A model generated the notes under the pieces. That model worked only from the letters and a program-made list of their open reading frames with translations. It was not told the origin of the DNA and ran no database searches. From the IMG/VR virus record IMGVR_UViG_3300014501_000035, positions 1 to 39,144 of that record: a stretch of DNA of 39,144 nt; one strand, 5' to 3'. This stretch comes from a virus. Of this stretch, positions 24,600 through 38,914 are shown piece after piece. A program made the position numbers and the translations under genes. How positions within the stretch are numbered: the first letter of the stretch is position 1; the number at the start of each line of letters is the position of its first letter.

Positions 24600-26273
24600 T
24601 TATCCGATAAAAAAGCCGAACGCAATACCGTTCATGGTTGAGTCGCATGTGATGGCCTGCCGCATCGCAGTTATCAGGGCCACCGCCCCGTCGATTTTCG
24701 CAGCCGGTTTCAGTTTGTCGGGATATACATCCTCGTTCGGGCCGCGCGGCTTTGAGACGACGTTGCTCATGCACCAAGAAAGAACCGGGTCGCCGGTGTG
24801 GTGAACCCTGCCCTCTTGAATCGCCGCGTCCAATGCCTTCATTGGCAGTGATAGGTATTCGACCTTCTGCGGAACCTCAACCACGGTCACGCCGGTCGAG
24901 TAATTCAATTCCTGCATACACTGGTCGGCGTAACGCTTGTCATAGCAAACCCCGATTACGTTGCGCCCTTCAATGTCCGCCGTGAGGTCCGCTTTCAACT
25001 GGGCATAATCCAACGACGCGCCTTCGCACGGAGTCAGATAGCCCTCCGCATCCCACTTCTGGTACATCTGGTTTGCGTGATCGGTGATGCGGTCTTCCGG
25101 TAGGTAGTGCCTTGAAAATATGTAGTAGTGCAAGCGTCCTTCGAGGGTACGAACGTAAACGCGGATTACAGCCGACAAATCTAAAACCGATGCAAGGTCT
25201 ACGCCGATGTACAACGGGTCGTTTATGAAGTCGGCCTCGTTCAATGTAGCGTCGAGGCACCGTGCCCAGTCCACCATGTTGAAATACGCGCTGGCTGCTG
25301 TCATCCAGATGCAAAGGTGCTTGGTAGAAAACACGCCGCGCTTGCTGGCGTTCTGCACAGCCTGCGCTTGATCGTGAAGCAGTGTAGAAAGCTGGACACT
25401 GACGCCAAGATTTGGATTTGCCATCCAGAGTGCGGCTTCGCTGGACCAATCCACGTCCTTGTCGATTGTGTAGATGACTGTGAACAACGCCTCATCAATC
25501 AACGTGCCTTCAAGAACCTGCTGCGCCGTAGCCTGAAGATCGTGGCACGGACTCGCAGTGTTGTAACCCGCCGTCGTTATGGTCAACAGGAGTGGTTGCT
25601 CTCTGCCGACCATGCCTGTCTTCAACGTGTCGTATAAATCGGCGGTATCCGCTTCGTGGAACTCATCGCAGATGCCGCATGAGATCGAAGCGCCGTCGCC
25701 GGGCTTGCCGATGACGGGTAGAAAACTGCTGCCTGTCGCATCGACGGTTAGTGAACGTGCATTGGCCGTGATGCCTAGAACCTTGCTCAAATCCGGTGTT
25801 TTTTGCACCATGATTTTTGCGGGCTTGAAAACTTCGAAAGCCTGTTTCTCACTCGTTGCGCCGCAGACTACTTCCGCGCCCGCTTCGCCATCACAGGCCA
25901 ACATATAAAGTCCGATGCCTGCTGCAAGTGGTGATTTACCCTGCTTCCTCGGACAGCAGATATATGCCTCACGGAAACGTCTGAATCCGTCTGTCTTGCT
26001 CAACCAACCGAAGATGGAACCGATGATGAAACACTGAAATGGCTCCAGCTTCAGCTTTTCTCTCCGTGCTGCCCATCTGCCTTTGGTATGGGGAAGAAGT
26101 TCGATGAACTCACATGCGCGGTTCGCTGCTGCGTCATCGAAGATGTAATCAAAATCTGGTCGTTCTAAATTCTCGATATGTCTAGCCGCTGCCAACTTTA
26201 TCCAGTGACAAGCCGGGAGGGTGCCGGTGAGTATGTCAACCGCGTACTGTGTTGCCTTTTGTGCATAACTCAC
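24600..26273 (-). CDS. terL: Terminase large subunit
   Basis: A 557-residue protein of the HK97/Terminase_1 type. The Walker A-like motif CCPRKQGKS is at about 106-114, the Walker B region SCGICDEF at about 198-205, and the C-motif area LTITTAGYN at about 230-238. The nuclease domain begins with YIGVDLASVLD, whose first Asp (about 359) is a metal ligand. It cuts concatemers and pumps DNA into the prohead through the portal. It stands 11 nt after the small subunit and is followed by the portal after only 3 nt. Confidence 0.92.
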   Translation of the reverse strand: MSYAQKATQYAVDILTGTLPACHWIKLAAARHIENLERPDFDYIFDDAAANRACEFIELLPHTKGRWAARREKLKLEPFQCFIIGSIFGWLSKTDGFRRFREAYICCPRKQGKSPLAAGIGLYMLACDGEAGAEVVCGATSEKQAFEVFKPAKIMVQKTPDLSKVLGITANARSLTVDATGSSFLPVIGKPGDGASISCGICDEFHEADTADLYDTLKTGMVGREQPLLLTITTAGYNTASPCHDLQATAQQVLEGTLIDEALFTVIYTIDKDVDWSSEAALWMANPNLGVSVQLSTLLHDQAQAVQNASKRGVFSTKHLCIWMTAASAYFNMVDWARCLDATLNEADFINDPLYIGVDLASVLDLSAVIRVYVRTLEGRLHYYIFSRHYLPEDRITDHANQMYQKWDAEGYLTPCEGASLDYAQLKADLTADIEGRNVIGVCYDKRYADQCMQELNYSTGVTVVEVPQKVEYLSLPMKALDAAIQEGRVHHTGDPVLSWCMSNVVSKPRGPNEDVYPDKLKPAAKIDGAVALITAMRQAITCDSTMNGIAFGFFIG

Positions 26274-26284
26274 TCATGGCCGTC

Positions 26285-26749
26285 CTAGCTTGCAAACTTC
26301 GCGAACGGGGACTTCACAAGTCCAATGCCGTGTGGAGAGGTTCCCTGGACCTTAGAGCGACTTGCGGGCGTCAACCCAAACTCGATTGAGAACTTACGCA
26401 TGTGATCCATCGCGACGTTAGCGATCCCGACGTAGGGACTCGGAATTGGAAAGCCAGACTTCGGGGACTTGATGACCGTTCCGAACTTTTGAATCTGTAA
26501 CTCGGCTGCTATCCATCGCGACCACGCCACGCAATACCCGGCGAGTGCCGCACGATCCACGCTCGTGAGCAGGCCAAGCGTGATGAGTTCAGCAGAGATG
26601 CGTTTCCATTCCTTTTTCGCGTCGTCGTCAAGATGCCGAGGGCAGGTGGGGACGCCGGTCGGCTTAGGTTCGCTCACGTTCAGCGGGCGGTGACCGGGAT
26701 TACCCGCAATCAATTTCAGTGCGGTCGGTTTTGGGCGTCTGCCTGCCAT
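26285..26749 (-). CDS. terS: Terminase small subunit (P27-like)
   Basis: A 154-residue protein when started at the ATG 26747-26749 (GGA 7 nt upstream); a TTG four codons earlier is the alternative. It begins MAGRRPKPTALKLIAGNPGH, the typical P27-family start, then PTCPRHLDDDAKKEWKRISA and a helix-turn-helix-like part (LLTSVDRAALAGYCVAWSRW). GIGLVKSPFAKFAS closes it. It recognises viral DNA and loads the large subunit. It overlaps the end of the ABC-GNAT gene by 50 nt. Confidence 0.87.
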   Translation of the reverse strand: MAGRRPKPTALKLIAGNPGHRPLNVSEPKPTGVPTCPRHLDDDAKKEWKRISAELITLGLLTSVDRAALAGYCVAWSRWIAAELQIQKFGTVIKSPKSGFPIPSPYVGIANVAMDHMRKFSIEFGLTPASRSKVQGTSPHGIGLVKSPFAKFAS

Positions 26750-27860
26750 ATATGAGTCCAAACTTTATTGCATCCTCGACTCGTGCTGCACCTTTGTAAT
26801 CGAATGAGGCGGTCAATCTGCTGGTGGCTGAGGTCATACCTTTTACAGAGGTTGTCTTGCCAATCACCGGCTGTAACTTCGGTCTTTCCCTCATGTCCCA
26901 CAACTTGCTTTTCGCCCGATGCCGAATCATGGCCGGGTTAGAAGTCACTGAGCTATACGGCTTGCCGGTCGCCCGGAACAACGAGGCTACATAATCACTC
27001 ATGGCGTTTCCTATGCCCACGCCTTGAAAATCTGGCAGGCAAACTGTCCGGTGTTCTCTCCAGCGGGGGGCTATTGCGTGCGGGAAGTGAAGTACAGCGG
27101 TGAACGCGACGGGCTGACCGTTGTACAACGCGGCGAAACACTTCGACGCTGGGTGTAGCTTCGTGTCTAAATAATGATGCTTGTGGAATAATCCCCAAGC
27201 CGCTTTATCACACCTGACGATTTCCAGTTCGATGGATGGGCGGCATCGAAGCTCCCTCCACTGAAACCGATTTGTATGTGGCTCATATATCCAATCCGGC
27301 TGGAGCCACGGCTCCACGTCATAGTGGACGCCCACCGCAATCATGCGGCGGTCTGACGCGCGTATTGCTTTTGCCAGTGCCGCGCTTCCAATTTGTGCAA
27401 CCGTTCGGTCAACAACCGAGGTAAATTCATCCATTACGAACAGGTCTGTGTTCTCAGCCATCGCCCGAGCGAGAGTGACACGGAACTGCTCCCCGTTCGA
27501 AAGGACGCGGTATGGACGCAGCCACGAGGGCGGCGAACTGAATCCCACCTGAGACAGCAGAGCGGTAATCTGCTTGATGCCCATCGACGCTGGAAAGTCA
27601 TCCACAATCGAACGGTCGGGGCTCCAGTCGTATCCGCTGATGAGCTTGTCTCCGAACATCTCACGGGTGAGAGTGGACTTCCCCGACCCTGACGGGCCGA
27701 CAATCATGCCGATTGACCAGGGGCGAGATTCGATGGGAAGCTCTCCAGTCCAACGAAGCTCAGATTTGAGCGTCGGTGGAAGCTCGAACATCCCCTCTAA
27801 CTGCATGACGCGGGGTGTCCGGGTCACAGGACTTGAAATCACGCAATCAAAGATCGGCAT
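26700..27860 (-). CDS. ABC ATPase fused to GNAT (Mom-like) acyltransferase
   Basis: A 386-residue two-domain protein. The ABC ATPase domain (residues 10-200) has Walker A GPSGSGKS (55-62), signature LSNGEQFRVTLARA (120-133), Walker B LFVMDEFTS (140-148) and an H-loop His (179). No membrane segment is present, so it is a soluble DNA-associated type rather than a transporter. Residues 210-340 form a GNAT-like domain: KAAWGLFHKHHYL, then PVAFTAVLHFP and the CoA-loop motif LPDFQGVGIGNAMSDYV (275-291). The HHY-containing helix is like that of phage Mom-type enzymes. It starts 22 nt inside the end of the ParB-like gene (AAGGA upstream) and runs into terS. A role in DNA modification or packaging is inferred. 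Confidence 0.75.
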   Translation of the reverse strand: MPIFDCVISSPVTRTPRVMQLEGMFELPPTLKSELRWTGELPIESRPWSIGMIVGPSGSGKSTLTREMFGDKLISGYDWSPDRSIVDDFPASMGIKQITALLSQVGFSSPPSWLRPYRVLSNGEQFRVTLARAMAENTDLFVMDEFTSVVDRTVAQIGSAALAKAIRASDRRMIAVGVHYDVEPWLQPDWIYEPHTNRFQWRELRCRPSIELEIVRCDKAAWGLFHKHHYLDTKLHPASKCFAALYNGQPVAFTAVLHFPHAIAPRWREHRTVCLPDFQGVGIGNAMSDYVASLFRATGKPYSSVTSNPAMIRHRAKSKLWDMRERPKLQPVIGKTTSVKGMTSATSRLTASFDYKGAARVEDAIKFGLIYGRQTPKTDRTEIDCG

Positions 27861-28402
27861 TCATATCCTTCGCCCGTCAGCCGCTGCAAGAGGGCAAGCT
27901 GTGAGGCTTCGTCGCTACAAGCGGCCAAGACGCTGTAGGTGCTCTCCAGAGCGTTTGACTGGTCAGGGGCGTCAGAATCGTTTACGGGCAGCACCTTGAG
28001 CTTCCCTAGCTCCTCCGCAGTGAAGTAGGGGAGCAGGTCGAAGTCAGCGGACCCGAGAATGTCAGCATCCCAGTCGAGGCCAAGCTCAGCAGTGCGATTG
28101 TCAGCGACAGCCAGCCCGCGCGCCTTTGGGTCGTCTATAGACAAGTCGGTGCGTTGCACAGCCACAAGCTGTGTGCCGTCAGTCTGCACAACGATGACAT
28201 CCTGAATCCCTGCGGCGACTGCTTGCTTCACTGTCGTATTACCAGCGAGGATGTTCCCATTTTTGTCAATGAGAACGGAACGGCCAGCCCCGAACTGCTG
28301 AAGAGACTTGGCGACTGTCTCACGCCCGCGTTTGGTCCCGCGATTCGCGTTTTTCGTGTCGGGTTTGAGTTCGGAAAGCTTCAAAGATACCCCACTGACC
28401 AA
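27839..28402 (-). CDS. ParB-like nuclease-domain protein
   Basis: A 187-residue protein. Residues 7-105 are a ParB/Srx-type domain: LKLSELKPDTKNANRGTKRG, then the binding-site region FGAGRSVLIDKNGNILAGN, TTVKQAVAAGIQDVIVVQTD, and the PKARGLAVADNRTAELGLDW strand-helix. It starts at TTG 28402; a TTG at 28384 has a better ribosome binding site and is an alternative. No C-terminal dimer domain of chromosomal ParB exists, so partition is unlikely. Phage ParB-fold proteins near terminases often accompany DNA methyltransferases or modification enzymes; here the partner is the ABC-GNAT protein. Confidence 0.8.
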   Translation of the reverse strand: MVSGVSLKLSELKPDTKNANRGTKRGRETVAKSLQQFGAGRSVLIDKNGNILAGNTTVKQAVAAGIQDVIVVQTDGTQLVAVQRTDLSIDDPKARGLAVADNRTAELGLDWDADILGSADFDLLPYFTAEELGKLKVLPVNDSDAPDQSNALESTYSVLAACSDEASQLALLQRLTGEGYECRSLIA

Positions 28403-28526: not shown

Positions 28527-28853
28527 CTAATAGCCCATGACCGTTTCGTGTGTATGGCATGACTTACACAACGGAACTATATTCGTTTCATCGTATTGCA
28601 AGTGTGGAAACGACAACACTTTTTTCGGGTGATGCAGATCAGTAGCCAGCACAACCAATCCATGCGCCAGACAATGCGTGCAGAGCGGTTTGCGTGATAG
28701 CACTTCCAACCTGTACGCCTGCCATTTGCGGCCATATCCACGTCGTGATGCTGATGGCCGCGACCACGCCGTCTTATGTGTTGGGCAAAAGTTGTCCAGC
28801 GTCAACGCTGGACAGCCAGGAGCTTGGCACGGACGTTTTGGTTGCGGTGGCAT
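28527..28853 (-). CDS. HNH endonuclease
   Basis: A 108-residue protein. N-terminal zinc ligands CQAPGCPALTLDNFCPTH, then the HNH core: CTHCLAHGLVVLATDLHHPK, DETNIVPLCKSCHTH. The His-His of DLHH and the final Cys-His pair are the expected catalytic and metal residues. HNH proteins next to the terminase are common in HK97-type phages and help cut cos or pac sites together with the terminase. It follows the upstream gene directly (stop TAG, then ATG). The 125 nt between 28403 and 28526 hold no gene. Confidence 0.87.
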   Translation of the reverse strand: MPPQPKRPCQAPGCPALTLDNFCPTHKTAWSRPSASRRGYGRKWQAYRLEVLSRKPLCTHCLAHGLVVLATDLHHPKKVLSFPHLQYDETNIVPLCKSCHTHETVMGY

Positions 28854-29761: not shown

Positions 29762-30292
29762 CTACTTACACAAACGGCGATTTCGAGAAAAATCCCCGGT
29801 TTTATTTTTAATTCTGTCGAATCTGTTGCGAACAGCCTTGAGAGTTATGCCCAGCGAAACCGCGATGTCGCGAATATCGGCACCATCAGCCAGCGCGCGT
29901 ACCAGGGTTTGTTGGTTCGCCGTCAGCGGTGTTTTCAGTTCGTCCAAGGTGTGAAATTGCACATCCGCAGAATCGTCATACTCCGATTCCTGCTCAGGCA
30001 GTCCAACAATCCTGAACTCGGCTTGAATTGAACGGACATGACTAACTCGGTCGCGTATGTTGTGACGGATAATCCTGCGAATCCAAGTTGGATAACTCGC
30101 TGTAAGTCCATCAAAGCTATCCACACGTTTCCAGATCGCCATGCAGACCGCCTGGGCCAAGTCCTCAGCGTCCTCGCGGCCTTCCAGGCGAGCTATCCCC
30201 ACCGCGAACGCCCGCGATGCCAGCAGCAGATCGTCCAGGCTCAACGTGCCAGCTTTATACGCGGTGAACGACTGTTGAAGTGAGCTTGTCAT
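29762..30292 (-). CDS. Phage ECF-like sigma-70 factor
   Basis: A 176-residue protein from the ATG 30290-30292. Region 2: LASRAFAVGIARLEGREDAE, then DLAQAVCMAIWKRVDSFDGL and YPTWIRRIIRHNIRDRV, typical of sigma-70 region 2. Region 4: LTANQQTLVRALADGADIRD, IAVSLGITLKAVRNRFDRIK, an HTH for -35 contact. No region 1 or 3, as in group 4 factors. The gene is coupled on both sides (ATGA overlap upstream, TAGATG downstream). It may turn on the late operon. The family is certain; its target promoters are not. Confidence 0.85.
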   Translation of the reverse strand: MTSSLQQSFTAYKAGTLSLDDLLLASRAFAVGIARLEGREDAEDLAQAVCMAIWKRVDSFDGLTASYPTWIRRIIRHNIRDRVSHVRSIQAEFRIVGLPEQESEYDDSADVQFHTLDELKTPLTANQQTLVRALADGADIRDIAVSLGITLKAVRNRFDRIKNKTGDFSRNRRLCK

Positions 30293-30405
30293 TTTGTTAA
30301 CGGCCAGCACAACGGGCAGCAACAGGCCGCATGACCGCAATTCCGGCAGACGGCGTGTTGCAGGAGCGTACCGTATTTGCAGCAATGCTTGAATTCCTTA
30401 GACAT
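30289..30405 (-). CDS. 38-residue Cys-rich microprotein
   Basis: The frame starts in the overlap ATGTCTAAG of the previous gene and ends in TGA that overlaps the sigma factor ATG (AAAATGACA). Product: MSKEFKHCCKYGTLLQHAVC, then RNCGHAACCCPLCW, with eight cysteines and three histidines. It looks like a zinc-binding ribbon. Because both ends overlap the neighbours, it is very likely translated. It is a candidate metal- or redox-sensing partner of the sigma factor. Confidence 0.55.
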   Translation of the reverse strand: MSKEFKHCCKYGTLLQHAVCRNCGHAACCCPLCWPLTK

Positions 30406-32675: not shown

Positions 32676-33260
32676 TTACAGTAACTTTGCCCAACGCTGT
32701 TTTTTCTCGAATGTGATGGGAGTTACTTCGTGCCCGTTGGGGCGATTGGTTCTCATTCCTTGCGGGGTACCCCCACACCCGGTTTTCTCACAAACCCACC
32801 CGGCGGCCTTGAGGCTGGTTCCGGGCTCGGAATCTAAGATATAAGTTTGGATACGTGCGTACCCCATCAGCTTGGCAATCTTGGCACAGGTTGAATACAG
32901 GAGACTACAAGCATTGTCTGTACCATCGGTGACCAGTCGGCATACTTCGACTACAGTACCATCGTCCAGAGAGGGGCAAGCGGGGCGCATACAAATTGCC
33001 GCACCGACCATAACTCCATCTTTGGATGCTCCAATGGAAAACTTGGCAACTCGAATAGGGGAATGATGCCTGTGCCACTGGGCAACCAGTTCGTTTGCTT
33101 GTCTAAGATGGAGCGGTACTACCTTAAGTTGACCGGCCTGTCGCAAAGCTCGGGCGGCTTTTACCTTTAACCGTTGCTTGTATGCTCGTTGTGCAGCGGC
33201 GTGGTTCTTGTGAATCTTGGGACGACCGGGCTTGCGTATGGATGATTCAATAGGTTTCAT
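32676..33260 (-). CDS. XF1762-family (GNAT-like) phage protein
   Basis: A 194-residue protein. Residues 45-190 match the XF1762 family: LHLRQANELVAQWHRHHSPI, then AKFSIGASKDGVMVGAAICM, VEVCRLVTDGTDNACSLLYS, MGYARIQTYILDSEPGTSLK and AAGWVCEK. The family is widespread in phages and has an acyltransferase-like fold; its substrate is unknown. The basic N-terminus contains RKPGRPK, an AT-hook-like DNA contact, plus an AAAQRAYKQR segment. It is encoded with the early genes, 5 kb from the other GNAT-type gene of this phage. Confidence 0.78.
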   Translation of the reverse strand: MKPIESSIRKPGRPKIHKNHAAAQRAYKQRLKVKAARALRQAGQLKVVPLHLRQANELVAQWHRHHSPIRVAKFSIGASKDGVMVGAAICMRPACPSLDDGTVVEVCRLVTDGTDNACSLLYSTCAKIAKLMGYARIQTYILDSEPGTSLKAAGWVCEKTGCGGTPQGMRTNRPNGHEVTPITFEKKQRWAKLL

Positions 33261-37541: not shown

Positions 37542-37736
37542 ATGGATACCATAGAGACAATCGCGACCTGGGGTAATCTTCTTACCGTACCCGAATTGGC
37601 AGGGCTGACTTCGATTTCCCCAAAGACATTGTACAGATACGCCAAGCTGCGAAAGCTCCCCACAATAAAAATCGGCAATTGCATTCGATTGAATCCGAAG
37701 GCAATTGCCGAATGGTTGAGAGCACGTCAGGCTTAG
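37542..37736 (+). CDS. Excisionase-like HTH protein
   Basis: A 64-residue protein with a MerR/excisionase helix-turn-helix: LLTVPELAGLTSISPKTLYR, then YAKLRKLPTIKIGNCIRLNP and KAIAEWLRARQ. Size and layout fit the DNA-bending excisionase (Xis) that directs the integrase in prophage excision. It converges with the integrase and overlaps its end by 4 nt. In many phages the xis gene lies beside int in this way. Confidence 0.7.
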   Translation: MDTIETIATWGNLLTVPELAGLTSISPKTLYRYAKLRKLPTIKIGNCIRLNPKAIAEWLRARQA

Positions 37737-38914
37737 GCCCATGCCGCGTTTGCCGCTTGCTGCATCACTGGCATCGCTGACGGACGAAGGTACCGCTCGG
37801 TGATGACCATGCTTGAGTGGCCTGCCAGGACTTGTACATTACGTGAATTTGTAAAGTCCAACATCCTTGTAAGATAAGTGGCTCTGAACTTGTGGAGCCA
37901 AGCATTCTCACACTCGCGGCGCGAGACGCAACCATCACACCGTCCACAATTAAAACCAGCATCGCGCCAATCGTCTTTCAGTGCCTTGAGCAGCCGCTGA
38001 TCCGGCGTGCCGTTGCGCGTTGCCAGTATGTAGCGTGAGCATGGGTTCTGCTTACGCCACTCAACCAGCTTAGTGAGTAGCGAGTCCGGGATCGGGACAG
38101 CGCGTTCCTGTCGGCTCTTTGGAGCGAAACCTACCTTGAATTTGATGATTGCGGTTTTTGCTTCCCAGTCGATGTTCGTCCATTCAAGATAAGTCAATTC
38201 CGTTTCACGAAACCCGAGTTTCAGGAACATCTCCCACGCCAGCGCATGACGCGGTGTGGCCACGGCAAGGAGTTTAGCGACTTCAGCCTCGGTGTATGTT
38301 TCTGCGGTCGTCGTGGGCTTGTACCGCAGCTTCGTGTGTTCCCCCGCATCAATGACTGCACCGGGGTCGATCTTGCAATGGCGAAGGAAGCAACGGAGCA
38401 TCCCGTAGCGATTCGCACGGCTCACCGCCGCCAGCCCCTGTGCCTCCCACACGCGGGACAGCGTGAGGATGTCCGACTCCTCGATTTGGCTGGGGAGTGT
38501 CTTGTTTTGCCCCGCCAGCACCTTGCAAAAGTCATCAACCGTCAGCCTGTAGCGGACGATGCTCTCGTGTTTCAAAAGGAACGTCTTTTTCAATTCGTCG
38601 ATTGTCTTGTTGTCCTTCGACCGCTGACCGATGCCTAGCTTGTCATTCAAGTGGGCGAGTTGCAGCTTGTCAGTGAGTTCGCCGAGTGCCGTCTGTGCTT
38701 GGTCAAGATCGGCTCCAACGGTGGTGTAGACGCAACGTTCGCCCTCGTAATGCCTGATTTGATATGTGCCGTTAGGCGCTGCATGTTCTTGTTTGTTGAA
38801 CCACATCGCGTCGGGCTTGATGCGGCCATTCCTCCCTTTGATTAGAGTCCCACGTCTCCAACCCAAGCCATCTAGTCGGGCGTACCTTACTATTGTTGCT
38901 ACTCTGTTCGCCAT
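37733..38914 (-). CDS. int: Tyrosine site-specific integrase
   Basis: A 393-residue tyrosine recombinase. An N-terminal arm-binding part (1-100) is followed by a core-binding SAM-like domain (about 102-190) and the catalytic domain. Catalytic residues: Arg in GFRETELTYLEW (about 236), Lys probably in FAPKSRQERAVPI (266), His-xx-Arg in LHKFRATYLTR (341/344), His in LAGHSS (366) and the nucleophile Tyr in TERYL (375). Between the last beta strand and HxxR lies CGRCDGC ... EC, four cysteines (323, 326, 329, 335) that may bind zinc, unusual for the family. It integrates the phage into the host. The start is 109 nt from the next host gene. Confidence 0.92.
   Translation of the reverse strand: MANRVATIVRYARLDGLGWRRGTLIKGRNGRIKPDAMWFNKQEHAAPNGTYQIRHYEGERCVYTTVGADLDQAQTALGELTDKLQLAHLNDKLGIGQRSKDNKTIDELKKTFLLKHESIVRYRLTVDDFCKVLAGQNKTLPSQIEESDILTLSRVWEAQGLAAVSRANRYGMLRCFLRHCKIDPGAVIDAGEHTKLRYKPTTTAETYTEAEVAKLLAVATPRHALAWEMFLKLGFRETELTYLEWTNIDWEAKTAIIKFKVGFAPKSRQERAVPIPDSLLTKLVEWRKQNPCSRYILATRNGTPDQRLLKALKDDWRDAGFNCGRCDGCVSRRECENAWLHKFRATYLTRMLDFTNSRNVQVLAGHSSMVITERYLRPSAMPVMQQAANAAWA

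Follow-up and report, generated by a model that had tools for sequence, protein, structure and literature searches.

Described acyltransferase and ParB-linked systems

TmcA/NAT10, the RNA cytidine acetyltransferase, couples an ATPase with a GNAT domain for the N-acetylation of a base. For phages, PMC7824862 relates a prediction by Iyer et al. 2013 that a GNAT domain coupled with an ABC ATPase places an acyl group of uncharacterised kind on a DNA base, with QAX98348.1 and a pT24 protein named as examples. In phages, ParB folds frequently occur in fusions with N6/N4 methylases, and a bacterial ParB–acetyltransferase fusion binds GTP (PMC12704722).

The ABC ATPase–GNAT fusion described here is a direct homologue of both named examples, namely QAX98348.1, an AsFcp_2 gene product (locus L093; 36.8% identity, E 8e-51, hit H24 of the phage-record search), and the pT24 protein (E 2e-52, hit H41 of the same search). 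Since QAX98348.1 serves as an exemplar in PMC7824862, DNA modification by ABC-GNAT proteins is a prediction already in print, and is not new here. Our literature search found no experimental test of ABC-GNAT function, and neither the literature on donor genes with this family nor the paper on phages LE3/LE4 held evidence on DNA modification. The present survey adds the counts of ParB coupling, the affinity of this ParB to the methylase type, the placement in Mu-like phages and the donor-gene neighbours. For this last pattern, no report was found in the literature searched, Iyer et al. 2013 itself lying outside it.

Organisation of the locus

The window (the whole stretch of DNA analysed, 39,144 nucleotides) carries on its minus strand, in this order, genes for an HNH endonuclease, a ParB-like protein, the ABC-GNAT fusion, terS and terL, and then a 573-aa portal-sized open reading frame. 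The features of interest are the following.

24600..26273, minus strand: terminase large subunit (terL), which served as the TerL seed and was recovered in relatives; context
26285..26749, minus strand: terminase small subunit (terS), P27 family; Pfam Terminase_4, E 8e-29
26700..27860, minus strand: ABC ATPase–GNAT fusion, 386 aa, with Pfam and PHROG matches; proposed ATP-dependent DNA base N-acyltransferase
27839..28402, minus strand: ParB-like protein, ParB/Srx superfamily; phrog_620, E 2e-21, and phrog_498, E 4e-16; proposed DNA-targeting subunit
28527..28853, minus strand: HNH endonuclease, upstream of ParB; Pfam HNH, E 4e-6, and phrog_144, E 6e-26; context
32676..33260, minus strand: XF1762-family protein, a relative of the Mom-family acyltransferases; NCBIfam XF1762, E 4e-44, and phrog_1384 'Mom-like', E 4e-31

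The ParB-like and ABC-GNAT genes share 22 nt, and the overlap of the fusion gene with terS amounts to 50 nt from the likely ATG at 26749, or 62 nt if the TTG at 26761 is used. The coordinates, the five motifs of the fusion and the presence of an overlap on either side, as given in the first-pass annotation, all check out, and both halves of the fusion are supported by profiles. We regard terS as a neighbour that is not thought to be part of the proposed mechanism, and an HNH gene lies upstream in 15 of 249 loci. Elsewhere in the window, a phage-encoded sigma-factor-like protein (29762-30385; phrog_1740, E 1.5e-12), a possible late-gene regulator, lies upstream of the ABC-GNAT operon. An integrase match (37733-38914; phrog_1, E 4e-33) suggests that the phage is probably temperate.

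The ABC-GNAT fusion protein

The fusion consists of a soluble-type ABC ATPase (residues ~1-204) followed by a GNAT domain (~205-360). Both halves exceed the curated Pfam cut-offs (ABC_tran, E 8e-10; Acetyltransf_1, E 7e-6, over residues 222-300), and in the PHROG profile search nearly the full length is covered by phrog_11143 (E 4e-98), a large family annotated there as "unknown function". Profiles and model alike show an ABC ATPase fused to a GNAT domain, which defines the ABC-GNAT family. Searches of the PDB by sequence and by fold returned only generic ABC and GNAT matches, with the RNA enzyme NAT10 among the weak profile hits.

The motifs read GPSGSGKS (Walker A), LSNGEQ (signature), LFVMDE (Walker B), LPDFQGVGIG and HHY. 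In an alignment of 77 homologues, the invariant columns comprise, on the ABC side, G55, S57, G58, G60 and K61 of Walker A, S121 and G123 of the signature, D144 and E145 of Walker B, and the switch histidine H179, and, on the GNAT side, Y230, R271, V273, Q279 and G280; H229, L231, P276, G282 and W321 are conserved in at least 90%. The acyl-CoA pyrophosphate loop of the GNAT superfamily, Q/R-x-x-G-x-G/A, is present in its canonical form as Q279-G-V-G-I-G, and Foldseek recognises the GNAT fold (E 6e-6). The AlphaFold2 model built with the 77 homologues has a pLDDT of 92.1. The dN/dS values, 0.05-0.14 for both domains of the fusion and 0.17-0.25 for ParB, indicate that the two genes are under strong purifying selection. 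With motif residues (near-)invariant, a pLDDT of 92 and such a low dN/dS, the fusion is a genuine gene and not a chance reading frame. Because the catalytic motifs are invariant and the acyl-CoA loop is canonical, both its ATPase and its acyltransferase half appear to be active.

A transporter ATPase was also considered and rejected as unlikely: neither the annotated genes around the family members in phages nor the operon of the window include a membrane-domain partner.

Relation to Mom and to other acetyltransferases

The first-pass annotation had approached the fusion through Mom, the DNA-modifying protein of phage Mu. This link was not borne out. The hhalign probability of the fused GNAT domain was 5.3% against the Mom profile and 8.2% against Mom and XF1762 combined, over 42 columns only, and 0.2% against XF1762, and the PHROG search gave no match of the fusion to phrog_1384. 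With probabilities of 5-8% set against a generic GNAT match at E 7e-6, membership of the Mom family was rejected, and by its sequence the fused domain is a canonical GNAT; it may still work like Mom. The fold search agrees, since generic and protein N-acetyltransferases (E 6e-6, TM ~0.64) rank above LP65 Orf128, a relative of Mu Mom and the Mom-like protein recognised among the matches listed (E 7.5e-4, TM 0.60). Taken by sequence and by fold, the domain comes nearest to generic GNATs and to the protein N-acetyltransferases Naa50 and RimI. Other acetyltransferases thus fit better than Mom-like enzymes, formally the outcome that the first-pass annotation had set against its own proposal, although a TM of ~0.6 is the level of the common GNAT fold and does not identify the substrate. 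H229-Y230 and R271 fall at roughly similar points to the HYS and ELNR motifs of Mom, in an alignment that is not significant.

The Mom relative of this phage is another protein. The profiles of Mu Mom and XF1762 match with a probability of 96.6% (E 7e-10), so that the gene at 32676-33260, whose XF1762 identity stood and for which the mere label "GNAT-like" was too weak, is by profile a Mom-family relative and a separate candidate DNA modifier. The phage would then have two candidates for acyl modification of DNA, a combination also found in Aeromonas phage PX29, which encodes a Mom (H65) and an ABC-GNAT protein (H27).

The ParB partner

A ParB gene is found on the same strand within 1.5 kb upstream in 199 of the 229 loci with room for it (249 loci in total). 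After reduction at 80% identity, 102 of 117 non-redundant loci have ParB directly upstream of ABC-GNAT or fused to it; among loci from the two scans that started from the window family, the figure is 70 of 73. In two planctomycete contigs the ParB, ABC and GNAT parts form a single open reading frame (L115 5269-7110; L166 5293-7128), and the 22-nt junction of the window is shared by 39 of the 150 pairs that could be measured, across several phyla. The loci that lack an upstream ParB are mainly T4-like or jumbo relatives, together with one Porphyromonas phage. The coupling is near-obligate. In a Nonomuraea genome (L131 4603-7008), an opposite-strand pentapeptide-repeat-like gene has apparently been inserted between ParB and ABC-GNAT.

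The N-terminal domain of the window ParB matches the ParB/Srx superfamily (phrog_620) and, at the E-value listed above, the ParB-methyltransferase family phrog_498. Its nearest phage relatives are the ParB domains of DNA methylases, such as that of Aphanizomenon phage CL131 (45.8%, E 5e-30). A ParB gene also adjoins Mom in Microbacterium phage Antuna and stands two genes before Mom in Arthrobacter phage Sonny. A ParB of this type appears to be a shared partner of DNA-modifying enzymes. In tested ParB folds, the Box II arginine is an NTP-binding residue (PMC12704722); in the window, Box II reads GNTT, with Thr in place of the usual Arg, and a motif search across 208 ParB partners gave Arg in 100 and Thr in 66.

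Distribution and genomic placement

The ABC-GNAT family is widespread. One query yielded 202 loci in IMG/VR, the family alignment yielded 452 in GTDB genomes, the best of them mostly in Planctomycetota, and 81 phage records match. Cultured carriers include Gordonia/Rhodococcus phage Jace, Lactococcus phage P335, Pseudoalteromonas phage SL25 and Leptospira biflexa phage LE3. Since the closest genome relatives of the window are Planctomycetota contigs, its host is likely a planctomycete. In streptococcal, lactococcal and oenococcal phages, ABC and GNAT are two adjacent genes behind ParB. Several public records look misannotated: family members in Enterococcus phage 9184 and in Oenococcus and Streptococcus phages are labelled 'DNA polymerase' or 'ABC iron siderophore transporter', and a ParB alone is labelled 'DNA modification methylase'. 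The public record of Pseudoalteromonas phage SL25 shows no annotated gene at the place where ParB and ABC-GNAT are present (L086 4468-6071).

Two Mu-like phages carry the module after their tail genes. In the transposable Porphyromonas phage 008a, which has transposase, Mu B-like and Gam genes, ABC-GNAT and a formyltransferase gene stand at the right genome end, a position matching that of com-mom in Mu; in Komp_PAO1_1, ABC-GNAT follows a tail-fibre assembly gene. No Dam-family protein was found in the 11 carrier phages searched.

Candidate donor genes in relatives

In phage Jace and its relatives, the genes that come after ABC-GNAT encode an aspartate 1-decarboxylase and a short class III CoA-transferase-like protein (Jace L090 6101-7212). 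The decarboxylase is clear (Pfam E 2e-33; E 5e-22 against solved PanD, with the cleavage site kept), whereas the CoA-transferase-like protein matches Pfam only in its N-terminal part (E 2e-8) and weakly in the PDB. One or both genes come after ABC-GNAT in various phages and prophages (L017-L019, L080, L109, L110, L120, L123, L138, L176-L190). On the tree, most of these carriers share one clade; L110, from Gemmataceae, stands apart from it and close to the clade of the window. Another well-supported clade has a formyltransferase-fold gene after ABC-GNAT (L087, L088, L089, L202, L212-L243); this protein is closest to the hydrolase domain of solved 10-formyltetrahydrofolate dehydrogenase, and then to amine formyltransferases. 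An ASCH domain is added in some Gram-positive phages. Two biased queries, Jace and the formyltransferase carrier Ligma, supplied most of these donor-module counts; in the scans begun with the window family, PanD/CoA-transferase genes occur in 5 of 78 non-redundant loci and formyltransferase genes in 0 of 78.

PanD makes beta-alanine, so that beta-alanyl-CoA is a natural guess for the donor in the PanD-carrying relatives, where PanD could instead serve CoA supply. The formyltransferase neighbour suggests that a formyl group is added in its branch. No donor gene of either type was detected in the window, and the donor of this phage is therefore probably a host acyl-CoA, most simply acetyl-CoA. 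The donor genes of the relatives turn an unspecified acyl group into masses that can be sought in cultured phages, and it is this pattern that opens the question to experiment.

Proposed mechanism and alternatives

The genes, their motifs and fold, the purifying selection, the near-obligate ParB coupling and the identity of the family with the published predicted system are established. The reading that we favour, with a probability of about 0.62, is that the pair performs a ParB-targeted, ATP-dependent acylation of phage DNA bases that acts against restriction. ParB would deliver the enzyme to DNA, where the ABC ATPase domain would form a dimer with ATP in the manner of soluble ABC ATPases that act on DNA. 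The dimer would then grip and distort the duplex, exposing a base, and the GNAT domain would move an acyl group from acyl-CoA to an exocyclic amine (adenine N6 or cytosine N4). Virion DNA acylated in this way would be shielded from host nucleases. We infer each of these elements: DNA as the substrate, the identity of the acylated base, the acyl group, the role of the ATPase and the anti-restriction benefit.

Several lines of evidence argue for base acylation. The protein belongs to the family of the printed prediction, its ABC motifs and acyl-CoA loop are (near-)invariant, and no membrane-transport partner appears among the annotated neighbours. ParB is coupled to it almost throughout, even within a single reading frame, and is closest to the ParB domains of methylases; in Antuna and Sonny, a ParB gene lies next to or near Mom. 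The module stands after the tail genes of transposable phages, in 008a at the position of mom, and genes of acyl chemistry come after it in relatives. DNA modification by this pair, as the first-pass annotation had proposed, is thus the best-supported reading on the grounds of family, ParB coupling and context, and not by the route through Mom. Against it stand the Box II threonine, shared by the window and about one third of the family, the absence from the window of the relatives' donor gene types, and the proximity of the GNAT domain to generic and protein N-acetyltransferases, which makes a protein substrate possible.

On that last ground, the fusion could acetylate a host or phage protein (RNA polymerase, a ribosomal protein or terminase) for takeover or late expression, with ParB and the ABC ATPase only placing the enzyme near DNA or transcription complexes. 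The nearness to Naa50 and RimI agrees with such a role, and RNA polymerase is an acetylation target of phage GNATs such as Rac (PMC7824862). The matches to Naa50 and RimI do not go beyond the common fold, however, and the methylase-type ParB link, the mom-like position and the PanD/CoA-transferase and formyltransferase companions would be left unexplained. We hold this protein-directed role to be rather unlikely.

A prophage-borne defence or superinfection exclusion system, modifying or blocking competing phage DNA or host factors, appears improbable. It would suit a phage with an integrase, ParB-like proteins and ABC ATPases do co-occur in Dnd-type systems (PMC10853773), and PADLOC gave a match to mad3 of the MADS system (E 6e-13). 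However, this match is at its best over a stretch of only some 50 residues, which surrounds the ABC signature and Walker B. No nuclease effector recurs regularly next to the module, which is also found in lytic phages such as LE3/LE4 and in T4-like phages. Identity with Mad3 itself was rejected, the match being confined to the ABC motifs (249-299 of 374 profile positions) with no mad1-8 operon seen.

The weakest alternative, also raised in the first-pass annotation, makes the module a mark or organiser of DNA for packaging: at the packaging site, ParB would serve together with the ABC ATPase as a clamp or loader, while the GNAT domain would tune terminase. In its favour are the overlap with terS in the window and the 42 of 124 non-redundant loci that have a TerL no more than 6 kb downstream. 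It is nevertheless very unlikely and found no support, because the ABC-GNAT gene stands apart from the terminase in phages of the T4-like and Mu-like kinds, as seen in Porphyromonas phages, Komp_PAO1_1, pT24 and AsFcp_2, and serves phages with divergent terminases.

Base acylation can tentatively be extended to the whole family, as one scenario among others. ParB/ABC-GNAT might be a general phage platform for aminoacyl/acyl hypermodification of DNA with interchangeable donors: beta-alanyl-CoA, from PanD and the CoA-transferase-like protein, giving a beta-alanyl base amide; a formyl branch; and a donor-less branch, that of the window, drawing on host acyl-CoA. To our knowledge, neither beta-alanyl amide nor formyl-type base modifications have been described in any DNA.

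Comparison with known systems

TmcA/NAT10 differs from the fusion by its helicase-type ATPase and its RNA substrate, and apart from the GNAT fold no homology between them was seen. Dnd and Dpd also associate a ParB-superfamily protein (DndB, DpdB) with DNA modification, Dnd adding an ABC ATPase (PMC10853773, PMC12839542); their chemistry, phosphorothioate and deazaguanine, involves no GNAT step. In phage ParB–DNA methyltransferase fusions, the same ParB type precedes the modifying enzyme (PMC12704722). These use a SAM methylase, whereas here the effector is an acyltransferase with an ATPase, usually encoded by a separate, overlapping gene.

Mom of phage Mu, which gives N6-carbamoylmethyl-adenine, shares the GNAT fold with the fusion; a His-Tyr pair and an invariant Arg, at roughly similar sequence points, may also correspond. 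The module takes the genomic slot of mom in a Mu-like relative, and ParB is found near some Mom genes too. In contrast to the aligned Mom proteins, the fusion keeps the canonical Q-x-x-G-x-G acyl-CoA loop, and it carries an ABC ATPase that Mom lacks. If the proposed acylation is true, there would be two ways for GNAT enzymes to modify DNA: that of Mom, and one in which an ATPase takes part and a methylase-type ParB does the targeting.

The closest system is the GNAT-ABC system of Iyer et al. 2013, which, as reported in PMC7824862, is the same protein family; the chemistry proposed for it is also the same, with an acyl group of uncharacterised kind placed on a nucleobase. The statement on it in PMC7824862 makes no mention of ParB coupling or donor genes. 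Its named members, QAX98348.1 and the pT24 protein, are without a detectable ParB upstream, whereas the window member represents a large ParB-coupled branch, beside the terminase and probably in Planctomycetota hosts.
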